DNA of 5,367 nt from an uncultured Spirochaetales bacterium. Lineage in GTDB: Bacteria > Spirochaetota > Spirochaetia > Sphaerochaetales > Sphaerochaetaceae. Shown here one piece after another: positions 1 to 5,367 of the stretch; positions within the stretch are counted from its first letter, which is position 1, and each line of letters opens with the position of its first letter. The position numbers and the translations under genes were made by a program. The stretch covers positions 1 through 5,367 of the forward strand of contig CALFMX010000042.1 of the NCBI GenBank assembly GCA_937902565.1. The letters run 5' to 3'. The notes beneath the pieces were generated by a model that was not told where the DNA came from, made no database searches, and was given only the letters and a program-made list of their open reading frames with translations.

Positions 1-389
1 GGCCAGGACTTGCCAGAATGATAAGAGGCCAGATACTTTCGTTAAGAGAACAGGAATTTGTTCAGGCTGCAAGAGCTTTGGGGATCAGGGACAGTAAAAT
101 CATATGGAGACATTTAATACCCAATACGGTTGGTTATATAATTGTCAGCGCCACAATGGGGATGGCGGCAGCAATAATGAGTGAGGCGGCTTTGTCCTTC
201 TTAGGACTTGGCGTAACTCCTCCCGTACCTACTTGGGGAAATCTTGTTCAAAATGCAAGGGATATATATGTATTGAAAAATCGTGTATGGTTGTGGTTAC
301 CGCCGGGAATTGCTATTTTTTTAGCGGTTATGGGAATCAATTTGTTTGGCGACGGATTAAGAGATGCCATTGATCCTAAGTCTAAATAA
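1..389 (+). CDS. oppC: Oligopeptide/dipeptide ABC transporter permease, OppC/DppC type (5' end missing)
   Basis: This is the C-terminal part of an inner-membrane permease subunit of a peptide importer. The open frame runs from the window edge: the codons before the first ATG (position 18) read PGLAR, which matches the family's conserved run into the EAA loop, so that ATG is internal. The coupling loop reads QAARALG, then IIWRHLIPN, which is the EAA motif that docks on the ATPases. A hydrophobic segment around YIIVSATMGMAAAIMSEAALSF follows, then the conserved GLGVTPPVPTWG periplasmic stretch and a last membrane segment (WLWLPPGIAIFLAVMGINLF). The tail GDGLRDAIDPKSK is typical of OppC/DppC/AppC proteins. 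The gene ends 13 bp before oppD. It is AT-rich, with AGA, ATA and TTA codons, unlike genes beyond ~1010. OppC, DppC and AppC cannot be told apart from this fragment. Confidence 0.93.
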   Translation, partial: PGLARMIRGQILSLREQEFVQAARALGIRDSKIIWRHLIPNTVGYIIVSATMGMAAAIMSEAALSFLGLGVTPPVPTWGNLVQNARDIYVLKNRVWLWLPPGIAIFLAVMGINLFGDGLRDAIDPKSK

Positions 390-402: not shown

Positions 403-1398
403 ATGGATAAACTATTGAAAGTAAAAGATTTAAAGACTTATTTTTATACTGACGATGGAGTAGTGAAAGCCGTAGATGGTGTGGATTTTGATGTCGAATC
501 GGGGAAGACCATAGGAATAGTAGGAGAGTCAGGCTGTGGCAAAAGCATTACGGCTATGTCTATATTGCGTTTAATACCAAGTCCTCCAGGAAAAATTGTC
601 AATGGACGGATAACATTTAATGGGGAAGATCTTTTAGAAGTTTCCGAAAATAAAATCAGAGATATTCGCGGAAATGATATTTCAATGATATTTCAAGAGC
701 CTATGACGTCGCTGAATCCTGTATTTACCGTAGGATTTCAAATATCCGAAGTTCTGATGCTTCACCAGCATATGACTGAGGAAGAAGCCAGAAAAAGGAC
801 TATTGAGATGATAAAGGTTGTAGGGATTCCCAGAGCTGAAAAGATAGTTGATGAGTATCCCCATCAGCTTTCAGGAGGAATGAGGCAGAGAGTAATGATA
901 GCCATGGCTTTGGCTTGTCAGCCTAAGCTATTAATCGCAGATGAACCGACTACCGCATTGGATGTTACTATACAGGCCCAGATTCTCGAATTGATCGCCA
1001 AACTTTCAGTGAAGATGGGGACGGCGGTGATCCTCATCACCCACGACCTGGGCGTCGTGGCCGGGATGTGTGACCACGTCTGTGTCATGTATGCCGGCAA
1101 GATCGTGGAGCGGGCCGAGACCGGCAAGCTCTATGCCTACCCCGCCCACCCCTACACCGAGGGGCTCATCAAGAGCGTGCCCCGGATGGATACTACCAAG
1201 AAGGGCGAGCGCCTCTTCTCCATCGAGGGCCAGCCCCCCAACGTCATCGACCTGCCACCCTGCTGCCCCTTCCATCCCCGTTGCCACAAGGCGATGGAGG
1301 TCTGCCACCACGCCTACCCTCCACTCAGGGAGCTGGAGAAGGGCCACGAAGTGAGCTGTTGGCTCTACGTTGATGAGAAGGAGCGAGTGTATGAGTAA
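403..1398 (+). CDS. oppD: Peptide ABC transporter ATP-binding protein, OppD/DppD type (compositionally mosaic)
   Basis: One of the two ATPases that power peptide import, acting on the cytoplasmic face of the OppB/OppC channel. From the start at 403 it has 331 residues, the normal family length. Motifs in order: Walker A GESGCGKS (41-48), Q-loop Gln98 in IFQEP, signature LSGGMRQ (156-162), Walker B LLIADE ending at Asp180-Glu181, D-loop TALD, and H-loop His214 in ITHD. The C-terminal oligopeptide-transporter extension has cysteines at 288, 294, 301 and 319 (C-x5-C-x6-C-x17-C). The last 8 bp overlap oppF, so translation is probably coupled. The first ~190 codons are AT-rich, with about ten ATA isoleucines. 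From about codon 203 the gene is GC-rich and all six remaining isoleucines are ATC. The frame and catalytic motifs survive the switch, so the protein should be functional if the join is real. OppD versus DppD is not resolved. Confidence 0.95.
   Translation: MDKLLKVKDLKTYFYTDDGVVKAVDGVDFDVESGKTIGIVGESGCGKSITAMSILRLIPSPPGKIVNGRITFNGEDLLEVSENKIRDIRGNDISMIFQEPMTSLNPVFTVGFQISEVLMLHQHMTEEEARKRTIEMIKVVGIPRAEKIVDEYPHQLSGGMRQRVMIAMALACQPKLLIADEPTTALDVTIQAQILELIAKLSVKMGTAVILITHDLGVVAGMCDHVCVMYAGKIVERAETGKLYAYPAHPYTEGLIKSVPRMDTTKKGERLFSIEGQPPNVIDLPPCCPFHPRCHKAMEVCHHAYPPLRELEKGHEVSCWLYVDEKERVYE
976..1011. other. Composition breakpoint inside oppD (recombination or assembly junction)
   Basis: Upstream codons mix A/T-ending forms (ACT ATA, ATT, GAA, AAA CTT TCA). 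From position 1009 twenty codons in a row end in G or C (GTG AAG ATG GGG and onward through 1068). Sampled GC content goes from about 32-50% per 60 bases to about 65%. The junction falls in the highly conserved stretch just after the Walker B/D-loop (around VTIQAQILELIAKL). Homologous genes from different species are most alike there, which would favour either recombination or misassembly. Confidence 0.7.
1378..1383 (+). promoter_or_regulatory. Ribosome binding site fixing the oppF start
   Basis: AAGGAG sits 7 nt before the ATG at 1391, inside the end of oppD. It favours 1391 over the in-frame ATG at 1370, and it makes the predicted N-terminus (MSKQEPLLEVRDLK) match the usual start of OppF proteins. 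Confidence 0.75.
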
Positions 1399-2464
1399 GC
1401 AAGAACCTCTCTTGGAGGTCAGGGACCTGAAGCAGCACTTCCCTATCTCCAGCGGGTCCATCCTGCAGAAGCAGGTCGGGTTCATCCGTGCCGTCGATGG
1501 CATCAGCTTCGATGTCTACCCGGGCGAGACACTGGGCATTGTCGGCGAGAGCGGCTGCGGCAAGTCAACGACCGTGCGCTCGATCAGCCAACTGCACAAG
1601 CCGACCAGCGGGTCGGTGTTCTTCGGGGGCATCGACCTCGTCACCGCCGACAAGCACCAGATGCTCAAGGCACGGCGTGAGATGCAGATGATTTTCCAGG
1701 ACCCCTACGCATCGCTGGATCCACGGATGACGGTCCGCTCGATCATTGCGGAGCCACTGGTGATCTACAATCGCCGCGGGCTCCTGGAGAAGCCGCTGAC
1801 CAACATCGAGATCGAGCATCGCGTCGAGGATCTCATGGAGCGGGTGGGCCTGAACAAGCTCTTCAAGAACCGCTATCCCCATGAGTTCAGCGGCGGTCAG
1901 CGCCAGCGCATCGGCATCGCCCGCGCCCTGGCCCTCAATCCGAAGATCATCCTTGCCGATGAGCCGGTCAGTGCCCTGGACGTCTCGATCCAGAGCCAGA
2001 TCCTCAACCTGCTCAGCGACCTGCAGAAGGAGTTCGGCCTCACCTACATCTTCATCGCCCATGACCTGGCCGTCATCCAGCACATCTCGACCCGGGTTGC
2101 CGTCATGTACCTTGGCAAGTTCGTCGAGGTCAGCGATGCGGTGCGCCTCTATGACAATCCGCTCCACCCCTACACCACGGCGTTGCTCAGTGCAGCGCCG
2201 ATTCCCGACCCGACGGTCGAGAAGGGAAGACAGCGCATCATCCTCAGCGGTGATGTGCCATCCCCGGACCAGGAGCGCTTTGGCTGTTACTTCTATGAGC
2301 GCTGTCCTAAACGGATGCCCTGGTGTTCCTGCCACATCCCCCCGATGTTCGATTATGAGAGGGACCACCAGGTCGCCTGCTGGCTCTATGACACCACACG
2401 GGACTACCAAAACGTCTCGATGGAAGAGGCACAGAAGGCAGCCGCCTCATCACAGGTCGTGTAG
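1391..2464 (+). CDS. oppF: Peptide ABC transporter ATP-binding protein, OppF/DppF type
   Basis: The second ATPase of the importer, which pairs with OppD as a heterodimer under the membrane channel. It has 357 residues. Visible motifs: Walker A GESGCGKS (52-59), Q-loop Gln103 in MIFQDPYASLDPRM, signature SGGQRQR (from 167), Walker B IILADE ending at Asp190-Glu191, D-loop SALD, and H-loop His224 in IAHD. FQDPYASLDPRM and the DEPVSALDVSIQ stretch are typical of the F subunit rather than the D subunit. The C-terminal extension carries cysteines at 299, 305, 312 and 330, with exactly the spacing seen in the neighbouring D subunit, plus an extra Cys314. The gene overlaps oppD by 8 bp at its start and, tail-to-tail, a minus-strand gene by 15 bp at its end. 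It is uniformly GC-rich, like the rest of the right-hand part of the window. The final ~20 residues (NVSMEEAQKAAASSQVV) form a hydrophilic tail with no recognised role. Confidence 0.95.
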   Translation: MSKQEPLLEVRDLKQHFPISSGSILQKQVGFIRAVDGISFDVYPGETLGIVGESGCGKSTTVRSISQLHKPTSGSVFFGGIDLVTADKHQMLKARREMQMIFQDPYASLDPRMTVRSIIAEPLVIYNRRGLLEKPLTNIEIEHRVEDLMERVGLNKLFKNRYPHEFSGGQRQRIGIARALALNPKIILADEPVSALDVSIQSQILNLLSDLQKEFGLTYIFIAHDLAVIQHISTRVAVMYLGKFVEVSDAVRLYDNPLHPYTTALLSAAPIPDPTVEKGRQRIILSGDVPSPDQERFGCYFYERCPKRMPWCSCHIPPMFDYERDHQVACWLYDTTRDYQNVSMEEAQKAAASSQVV

Positions 2465-3004
2465 CGTGAGGTTGGTCTCCATGTCCCGAGGCCGATCGAT
2501 ATAGAGAGACAAGCCGGTAGCCGCCCCAATCCTGCGGGCGGCTTCCTCTACCCTGCCCGCCGACCGTCGCTCCCCCATGATCTGGATGGAGCGCTCCCCT
2601 CCTTCGGCAAGGCGGATGGAAAAGACCACCATGGCCCCTCCCCGCCTCCGCCTGACGAGGCGCGTGCCGCCTGCGCTCCCCCCTTTGACGAAGTGGGACA
2701 ACTCCAGCCGATCGACCTCATCAAAGGAGTATGAGGTACGCTTGACGAACGGGCCGAACCCCCACAACGAGGTGATGGTCCCCCCACTCGTGTCAAAGAC
2801 CCAGCTGTCGCGATAGAGTGCCCCGGCGATTGAGATGAGCAGGAGAAACACGATGTGGATCATGGAGCTGAAACGCACGCCGTCAGTGAGACTGGACGCC
2901 AATCCCCAGAGCAAAAAGAGGGAAAAAGAGAGGCAGAGAAGCGAGAAGAATCGGGAGATACGGTAGATGGGGCCGGCTTGCTTCATCACCAACGTGTACT
3001 GCAT
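2450..3004 (-). CDS. Hypothetical membrane protein with two N-terminal helices and a soluble C-terminal domain
   Basis: I do not recognise a named family. The start is the ATG whose first base is at 3004, preceded at 6 nt by GGAGGGG on the minus strand. An in-frame TTG at 3019 overlaps that ribosome site and is unlikely. The protein has 184 residues. Two hydrophobic segments are visible at about 19-39 (FFSLLCLSFSLFLLWGLASSL) and 48-64 (MIHIVFLLLISIAGALY). A soluble region follows, with alternating hydrophobic residues suggesting beta strands (DSWVFDTSGGTITSLWGFG, then YSFDEVDRLEL), a basic run RRRR (118-121) and a helix-like end around 148-164. A membrane hairpin followed by a short beta-rich domain resembles bacterial PH-like (bPH) proteins, but that is only an analogy. 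It is probably a real gene: strong ribosome site, plausible membrane topology, sensible coding in this frame, and it fills a gap that the flanking genes leave free. It separates oppF from oppA and faces both transcription units. Confidence 0.75.
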   Translation of the reverse strand: MQYTLVMKQAGPIYRISRFFSLLCLSFSLFLLWGLASSLTDGVRFSSMIHIVFLLLISIAGALYRDSWVFDTSGGTITSLWGFGPFVKRTSYSFDEVDRLELSHFVKGGSAGGTRLVRRRRGGAMVVFSIRLAEGGERSIQIMGERRSAGRVEEAARRIGAATGLSLYIDRPRDMETNLTLHDL

Positions 3005-3010
3005 CCCAAT

Positions 3011-3017
3011 CCCCTCC
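3011..3017 (-). promoter_or_regulatory. Ribosome binding site of the minus-strand membrane protein
   Basis: On the minus strand this reads GGAGGGG, 6 nt before the ATG at 3004. It decides that start over the TTG five codons upstream. Confidence 0.7.
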
Positions 3018-3026
3018 AATATCCTC

Positions 3027-3043
3027 TATGCAAAAGGTGCATA
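3027..3043. repeat. Short inverted repeat TATGCA-N5-TGCATA in the divergent intergenic region
   Basis: Perfect 6-bp arms at 3027-3032 and 3038-3043 flank a 5-bp spacer, just upstream of the minus-strand gene's ribosome site. A further TATGCA occurs at 3057-3062, and TACGCA occurs twice (3066-3071 and 3074-3079). These could be operator half-sites for a regulator of one or both divergent genes, or simply short chance repeats in AT-rich DNA. Function is not shown. Confidence 0.3.
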
Positions 3044-3102
3044 AACCAGCTTTACATATGCAAATTACGCACATACGCATGATAAGCTATTTGCGTTTTC
3101 AC

Positions 3103-3131
3103 TTGATTCATGGTTTAATGTATCCTATGCT
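3103..3131 (+). promoter_or_regulatory. Candidate sigma70-type promoter for oppA
   Basis: A -35-like TTGATT (3103-3108) and a -10-like TATGCT (3126-3131) are separated by 17 bp, matching 8 of 12 consensus bases. An alternative pair, TTGCGT (3091-3096) and TTTAAT (3114-3119), is also spaced by 17 bp and scores the same. Either lies in the AT-rich region immediately upstream of oppA and would give a short 5' leader. Which one is used cannot be decided by eye. Confidence 0.4.
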
Positions 3132-3158
3132 AAGTTGAACGTCTACACTTAGAACTAC

Positions 3159-3164
3159 AAGGAG
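3159..3164 (+). promoter_or_regulatory. Ribosome binding site fixing the oppA start
   Basis: AAGGAG lies 8 nt before the ATG at 3173 but only 2 nt before the in-frame ATG at 3167. Spacing therefore favours 3173, which also gives a standard MKKFLAILL signal peptide start. Confidence 0.75.
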
Positions 3165-3172
3165 ATATGTCT

Positions 3173-4879
3173 ATGAAGAAGTTTCTAGCTATCCTGCTGA
3201 GCGTGCTTCTTGTCAGTGCACTCTTTATTTCCTGCGGGAAGAAAGAAGCACCGGCAGCACCTGCTCCTGCAGCCCCGACTCCCACAGCTGTTGCAGCCCC
3301 TGCAGCCCCTGTTGCTCCCGCTGCCCCTGCAGCCCCTGTTGCTCCCGCAGCTCCAGCTGCCCCGGCCGTCAAAGAGGTGGTATTCCGCATCTCGAACGGT
3401 GCTGAGCCCGAGTCATTGGACCCTGCCCTGATCCAGGGTGTTCCCGAACATCGGATTTACCAGGCAATCTTCGAAGGCCTCGTCGCCTACGACCCTGAGA
3501 CCTCCTTTGCAGTTCCCGGAGTTGCAGAGAGCTGGACCAGCAATGATGATGGGACCCAATACACCTTCAAGCTGCGCAAGAACGCCGTCTGGAGTGACGG
3601 AACCCCCATTACAGCCGATGACGTCGTCTACAGCTGGCTGAGGATCCTCGCCCCCGAGACTGGTGGACCCTACGCTTGGTTCCCCGCCATGTTCCTCGTC
3701 GGAGCCGAAGAGTACAACAGTGGAGCAGCTGGTCCTGAGGCAGTCGGCATCCGCGCCCTCGATGACCACACCTTCCAGATGGACCTCATCGGGCCGCTTC
3801 CGTACGCCGTCGACGCCCTTGCCCACTACAGTTTCGCCATCGTGCCCAAGCACACCATCGAGAAGTATGGCTCCGCTTGGACCGACCCGGCCAACTTCGT
3901 CGGCAACGGCCCCTTCGTGCTGACCGACCGTGTTGCACAGACCTCGATCACCGTCTCCAAGAGCCCGACCTACTGGGATCGCGACAAGGTGAGCCTGGAC
4001 AAGGTGGTCTTCTACAGCTCCGACAGCTCGACGACCAACTTCAACATGTACCTCAACGGCGAGCTTGACTGGGCAACCACCGTACCGCCGGATCAGATCA
4101 ATGCCGCCCAGATGCGTGATGACTTCCAGGCATCCCCGCAGCTGGCCACCTACTACTACGTCTTCCAGACGGAGAAGGCCCCGATCAACAACCCGCTCGT
4201 ACGCCAGGCCCTTTCGCTGGCCATCGACCGCGAGGCACTGGTCGAAGGCATCCTGAAGGCTGGACAGATCCCCGCATGGGGCATTGTCAGCCCGATGGCC
4301 GGTTACGATGGACTTGAGTTCCCCTTCAGTGACATGGATGAGGCGATCGAGAAGGCACAGAGCCTGCTTGCCAAGGCTGGCTACCCCAACGGTGCCGGTT
4401 TCCCGACCATACCGATCCTCTACAACACCGACGAGGGACACAAGCAGATCGCCGAGTTCATCCAGCAGGAGTGGAAGAACAACCTGGGTATCAACGTCGT
4501 ACTTGAGAACCAGGAGTGGGGCACCTACCTCTCCAACCGCAACACCGGAAACTTCGTGGTCTCACGTGCCGGTTGGGTTGGTGACTACCAGGACCCCAAT
4601 ACCTTCCTTGACATGTTCATCACCGGAGCCGGTATGAACGGTGGCCAGTACTCCAACGAGCTCTATGACCTCTTCATCAACGAAGCAGCCCGCATGCCGG
4701 CAGGCGCAGACCGCTTCGGAGTCCTGATGACCGCTGAGGACATCATGATCAACCAGGACCAGGCTGTCATGCCGTTGTACTACTACGTCAACCTTGGCAT
4801 GGTCGACCTGGACAAGTGGGGCGGCTGGCATCCCAACACCATGGATATCCACCCGCTGAAGGACGTCTACCTCAAGTAG
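3173..4879 (+). CDS. oppA: Peptide-binding lipoprotein of an ABC transporter, OppA type (SBP family 5)
   Basis: The extracytoplasmic receptor that binds peptides and hands them to the OppBCDF importer. It has 568 residues from the ATG at 3173. Residues 1-20 form a lipoprotein signal peptide (KK, then a hydrophobic core) ending in LFIS before the lipidated Cys21. The Phe-Ile-Ser before Cys is a relaxed lipobox of the kind known in spirochaetes. Residues 26-66 are an Ala/Pro-rich tether. The family 5 binding domain follows: EPESLDP (78-84), [42 protein letters not shown] (from 339) and [17 protein letters not shown] (464-480). In this last motif Asp471 lines up with Asp419 of enteric OppA, which pairs with the peptide's free amino group. 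That suggests true oligopeptide binding rather than nickel or haem binding. The gene has its own promoter candidate and terminator, and is separated from oppCDF by an opposing gene. The exact ligand is unknown. Confidence 0.95.
3296..3348 (+). repeat. Tandem repeat, 27-bp period, encoding the Ala/Pro tether
   Basis: Two identical 26-base copies (3296-3321 and 3323-3348) are offset by 27 bp, so each unit adds nine residues of the APAAPVAPA kind without shifting the frame. The repeat lies within the low-complexity linker between the lipid anchor and the binding domain of the OppA-type protein. Copy number could vary by slippage or recombination. Confidence 0.8.
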
Positions 4880-4898
4880 ATCCAAAACCTTGCCTACT

Positions 4899-4928
4899 AC
4901 GGCCCCCGAGCAATCGGGGGTCGTTTTC
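4899..4928 (+). terminator. Intrinsic terminator of oppA
   Basis: An 11-bp stem (left arm 4899-4909, right arm 4914-4924, with one G-T wobble) is capped by a GCAA loop of the stable GNRA type. The core is CCCCCGA paired with TCGGGGG. The stem ends in a T run (TTTT at 4924-4927, then C). It begins 20 nt after the oppA stop codon and should separate oppA from the following aldolase gene. Confidence 0.88.
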
Positions 4929-4939
4929 TATGGGGAGAG

Positions 4940-4968
4940 TGGACGTACCGGCCACTTCGGGCTATAGT
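4940..4968 (+). promoter_or_regulatory. Candidate sigma70-type promoter for the threonine aldolase gene
   Basis: A -35-like TGGACG (4940-4945) and a -10-like TATAGT (4963-4968) lie 17 bp apart, matching 9 of 12 consensus bases. They sit just after the terminator and 24 bp before the start codon, so the leader would be short. The position fits a gene that is transcribed separately from oppA. Confidence 0.45.
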
Positions 4969-4992
4969 TTTCAGGAATCGGGAGGAGATGCA

Positions 4993-5367
4993 ATGAAACG
5001 CTTTGACCTGCGCAGTGATACGGTTACCAAGCCCACCAAGGGGATGAGAGAGGCGATGGCACGCGCCGAGGTCGGTGATGATGTCTACCGTGAAGACCCC
5101 ACCATGACAGCACTTGAAGAGCGTGCAGCCGCCCTCACCGGCAAGGAGGCCGCCCTCTTCGTCCCCTCAGGCTGCATGGGAAACCTCATCCCCCTCTACA
5201 TCCAAGCGGGGCGGGGCAAAGAGGTCCTCACTGCCTCAAGCAGCCACATCATCGGCCATGAGATCGGCTCGCTTGCCGCCATTGCGGGCACCCTGCCCAT
5301 CACCATAGACGCACCTCGGGGCATCCTCAGCGCCTCTGACCTGGAGGGGCGGGGGAAGGCCGGCTCC
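4993..5367 (+). CDS. ltaE: Low-specificity L-threonine aldolase (3' end missing)
   Basis: A PLP-dependent enzyme of the aspartate aminotransferase fold that splits threonine (and allo-threonine) into glycine and acetaldehyde in the cytoplasm. The first 125 residues are present, against about 340 for the family. They contain the diagnostic [11 protein letters not shown] (5-15), [11 protein letters not shown] (27-37), the [16 protein letters not shown] stretch (50-65) and His85 in SSHI, which lines up with the histidine that stacks on the PLP ring in the E. coli enzyme (His83). The PLP-binding lysine lies beyond the window. The start ATG is preceded by GGGAGGAG with 5 nt spacing. Codon use is GC-rich like oppF and oppA. 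An L-allo-threonine or phenylserine aldolase specificity cannot be excluded from the N-terminal part. Confidence 0.93.

Follow-up and report, generated by a model that had tools for sequence, protein, structure and literature searches.

A mosaic oppD gene joining clostridial and Sphaerochaeta sequence in a Sphaerochaetaceae contig is most probably an assembly chimera

Gene exchange between Sphaerochaeta and Clostridia has been reported, and the transfers on record would be whole genes that have diverged since the event. The locus described here involves the same pair of lineages, but its clostridial block is cut in the middle of a gene and is nearly identical to one living species. Known OppBCDF oligopeptide ABC transporter operons of Sphaerochaeta and Tissierellales offer a further comparison: each side of the locus is ordinary for its own lineage, and only the hybrid OppD is odd. 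As for assembly, k-mer graphs can contain paths that match no genome and, in one mock community, the chimeric sequence always lay at contig ends (PMC8172020). Chimeric contigs have also been described in metagenome-assembled genomes, although misassembly is called relatively rare there (PMC8201837). Such k-mer assembly chimeras resemble our contig in that the sequence of two organisms stands in one contig (PMC8172020, PMC8201837) and probably in a short common word at the join, which is seen here in relatives; the mock-community chimeras share with it the foreign part at a contig end (PMC8172020). The mock-community example joined two close genera, whereas the two sources here come from different phyla and have only a conserved gene segment in common.

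The window, by which we mean the whole stretch of 5,367 bases that was analysed, is one entire contig (C42) of genome G000. This genome has 332 contigs, a completeness of 86.08% and an estimated contamination of 2.1%, from which we infer that it is a metagenome bin. The features of the window are given below, where G064 is a genome from the order of Anaerosphaera multitolerans (which we take to be Tissierellales), G014 and G006 are relatives on the Sphaerochaeta side, and P0018 and P0003 are proteins recovered by database search.

3..389, + strand: 3' part of oppC, Tissierellales (clostridial) type, cut by the contig end; BPD_transp_1 domain; protein identity 100% to G064 and 48% to G014 and G006
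403..995, + strand: 5' part of oppD, of clostridial origin; together with 1-402 identical to G064 at 992 of 995 bases; residues 1-195 are 99.5% identical to P0018
973..995, + strand: likely zone of the exact word common to both parent genes, and so the join site; from the relatives' oppD against the G064 gene, the overlap in P0003 being presumed
996..1398, + strand: 3' part of oppD, Sphaerochaeta type; residues 204-331 are 100% identical to P0003, and the first P0003-specific residue is 198
1391..2464, + strand: oppF, Sphaerochaeta type; ABC_tran and oligo_HPY domains; protein identity 90-92% to G014/G006 and 54% to G064
2450..3019, - strand: gene of 189 aa, without a match in a Pfam search of its product; identity 77% to G014 and 68% to G006, with the same place in both
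3167..4879, + strand: oppA in the native operon region, encoding the substrate-binding protein; SBP_bac_5 domain; 91-92% identity to G014/G006

Beyond oppA another gene begins, whose product has a Beta_elim_lyase domain (Pfam), and on the opposite side the AT-rich block reaches the contig end at base 1. The slot of the reverse-strand gene between oppF and oppA is kept in both G014 and G006.

The original prediction had described an abrupt switch in composition within an intact oppD frame, and this description held. Counted from its ATG at 403, the frame at 403-1398 encodes 331 aa (as listed, the open reading frame begins at 364), and the hybrid product is by its domains an OppD-type ABC ATPase, passing both Pfam cut-offs (ABC_tran, 106 against 25 bits; oligo_HPY, 66.7 against 27.1 bits). 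At third codon positions the oppC fragment has a GC of 0.364 and bases 403-987 of oppD one of 0.344; beginning with the codon that contains base 996, the value in oppD rises to 0.851, with oppF at 0.829 and oppA at 0.746. Overall GC is 0.413 in 1-995 and 0.597 in 996-5367. The largest GC step in the window between adjacent 995-base stretches amounts to 0.212, compared with a largest step of 0.181 in a background of 28 readable contigs (40 of the 332 contigs of G000 were sampled, 12 of which were masked); that background step adjoins a gene boundary and does not lie within a frame. Low GC is not unique by itself, since 2 of the 1,871 stretches in these 28 contigs were as low or lower. On contig C50 (L151:3901-5160) we observed a low-GC stretch (to 0.41) with two large reverse-strand frames, next to a GC-rich ABC ATPase gene. 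It is possibly an acquired surface-protein region; it was also considered as a possible second chimera, and its GC step adjoins a gene boundary.

Each part of the hybrid OppD turned out to have its own parent. In a search of 5.77 billion proteins, 8,000 candidates were scored. The 120 that were listed included no full-length relative with more than 80% identity, although the contig's own protein is possibly hidden there, and the named relatives among these 120 were Sphaerochaeta and other spirochaetes. P0018 (338 aa, 40 contigs) is 99.5% identical to residues 1-195 and only 49.6% identical over 117 residues of the second part; among the matches listed, most of its named relatives belong to clostridia, for example Anaerosalibacter, Schnuerera and Tissierellia. 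Conversely, for P0003 (338 aa, 6 contigs) identity is 64.8% in the first part and 100% across residues 204-331. Both parents thus exist as whole, unmixed genes. They differ from each other at 144 residues, of which the window agrees with P0018 at 69, with P0003 at 74 and with neither at one (residue 139), and these parent-specific residues form two unmixed blocks, P0018-like up to residue 176 and P0003-like from residue 198. The reading of the sequence as a mosaic was correct. The separate search of the two halves that had been proposed as a check did return different closest relatives, a result that fits transfer and chimera alike. In a part-by-part comparison of 236 of the 239 proteins, 2 of the 117 from the full-length OppD list were closer in their first part than in their second, as were all 119 from the clostridial list. 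The three proteins dropped, P0001, P0002 and P0167 (493, 561 and 563 aa), exceed a single OppD. P0001 and P0002 look like two fused Opp ATPase parts and perhaps represent additional joins or deletions in conserved segments; P0167 was judged by its length only.

To place the AT-rich block, bases 1-975 were compared with 249 genomes from the order of A. multitolerans, 219 of which gave some match. The match to G064 is listed at 100%, with the runner-up among the 249 genomes at 78%. A further 16 genomes of the order cover nearly all of 1-975 at 70-78% identity, which indicates that the block is at home in Tissierellales. Base by base, the window is identical to G064 at 992 of the 995 positions in 1-995. 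The three exceptions are bases 588, 816 and 817, and one of these changes alters residue 139. From base 996 on the identity collapses (137 of 400 bases over 996-1395), so that the species edge is placed at 995/996. The switch does fall inside the predicted interval of 976-1011, but it lies at this edge and not at about 1000-1009. The G064 contig is 3,743,723 bases long (3.74 Mb, for a genome listed at 3.7 Mb), and its genes run oppA, oppB, oppC, oppD and oppF, with oppB assigned from its frame and position. Its OppD equals P0018, counted from its second methionine, and its oppA is only 23% identical to the oppA of the window. A scan of genome contigs with the AT-rich part found relatives at only 54-63% (best 80 of 592). 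No source of the block turned up among plasmid records, the best of which, from Acetoanaerobium noterae, reached 66.1% over 71% of the query, or among viral contigs, which gave a single relative at 51%.

Past base 996 the window matches G014 and G006 in the same order, with 68-93% protein identity (the G014 contig stops within oppA). In both relatives the genes run oppB, oppC, oppD, oppF, reverse gene, oppA; their oppC represents a longer type, with a 538-codon frame. The OppD of G014 is P0004, which NCBI names Sphaerochaeta sp. Both sources of the contig carry a co-linear oppB-oppC-oppD-oppF, and the join lies in register within a conserved segment. The search for relatives covered 60 genomes, from which 19 were fetched (18 of the genus and one of the family). 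In all 19, OppD resembles the window more closely in its second part (78-93%) than in its first (63-67%), and the hybrid joint is accordingly absent from all of them; the proposed check for the same junction in related genomes came back empty for these 19. A 24-base string over the joint occurred in only 4 of 127 loci, all of which are this contig.

The joint itself probably coincides with a short word common to the two kinds of oppD. When the G064 gene was compared with the oppD of each of the 19 relatives, which are not independent of each other, 11 had their longest exact common word, or one tied for longest, inside 973-995; in the other 8 it lay outside this interval. In 4 of the 19 (L015, L016, L021 and L022) this longest word has 17 bases, spans 979-995 and ends at the last clostridial base. 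From these relatives we infer that the true Sphaerochaeta parent, P0003, would have a similar exact-word overlap.

Of the native upstream half, most of oppB, oppC and the 5' half of oppD did not turn up in G000, which is only 86% complete: P0003 had no second match better than 51%, and the oppC of G014 matched at 43% or less outside the window's contig (49% on it). A piece of the start of native-type oppB is present on a separate contig, C150 (80 bases at 84%); about 3 kb are absent between the oppB break on C150 and base 996. C115 has two weaker oppB matches, which are part of a different operon. The alignment of C150 to G014 and G006 runs for 1.6 kb at 77-78% up to this oppB start; the last 37 bases of the contig are foreign, and the first 29 of them recur exactly on C40, C96 and C221. 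On C96 these 29 bases adjoin a frame with a DDE_Tnp_ISL3 domain. From this recurrence, the assembled strain likely carries an ISL3-type insertion near codon 27 of its native oppB (C150, L162:1-117, - strand), which would break its opp operon and be a natural cause for a contig to end. Conversely, a 14-kb piece of G064 around the operon matched G000 only at C42:1-1109 and over 82 bases of C79 (80%).

Taken together, these data favour the reading, to which we assign a probability of about 0.94, that the mosaic oppD is a chimeric contig made by the assembler at a short common word, rather than a gene present in any cell; the hybrid OppD is then probably not a natural protein. G000 would be a bin from a sample that also held a strain of the clostridium, and the assembly graph would have left the Sphaerochaeta path at the common word and followed the clostridium to the contig end, possibly helped by an ISL3-type insertion that broke the true path upstream. 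The argument rests on two unmixed parents (blocks of 69 and 74 residues, with one site neither), a clean switch, the near-identity of each part to a different source, a foreign block that runs off the end of the whole contig and an edge that probably lies at a shared word. The confinement of the joint string to the contig's own four loci, the sparse matches of the 14-kb piece and the native-type oppB start on C150 also count for it. Counting against it are the 8 relatives with their longest word elsewhere, the relative rarity of misassembly as stated in PMC8201837, and the missing native half, which a real replacement would also produce, in a genome of limited completeness. Misassembly, named at the outset as the competing explanation, has thus become the best one.

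That missing half leaves a small probability for a real and very recent recombination, in which a Sphaerochaeta cell exchanged the upstream section of its opp operon for DNA taken up from a Tissierellales neighbour, with an in-frame join at the short oppD word. The intact frame and domains and the co-linearity of block and operon agree with such an event, and the cut in oppB on C150 makes replacement of a broken operon imaginable; the corresponding sequence of events, an ISL3 break of the cell's own oppB followed by a swap of the upstream half at the word of about 20 bases, is nevertheless quite improbable. The transferred block proposed originally is disfavoured because it differs from one extant species at only 3 of 995 bases and runs off the contig end (a native-type oppB start stands on another contig, C150), because the whole native allele P0003 exists in 6 contigs, because the joint is missing from all 19 relatives, because the edge falls where the longest exact word common to the two genes tends to lie and because homology just beyond the edge is low. 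An older transfer with later drift is contradicted by the freshness of both the three differences and the one-base edge, and a natural composition shift within one gene by the near-identity of each part to a different whole gene. Chimeric molecules that arise by template switching are usually rare and would seldom determine a contig consensus. If the template had switched before assembly, while the library was amplified by PCR or a whole-genome method, one clean switch within a conserved segment would result as well, and on that background this origin is very improbable.

Were the joint real, it would be an unusually fresh between-phyla recombination in a conserved ATPase, only a few mutations removed from its occurrence. 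On the reading as an assembly chimera, the lesson is that such contigs can pass for cross-phylum gene transfer, since an in-frame join of orthologues leaves the frame and domains intact and the estimated contamination of the genome is only 2.1%.
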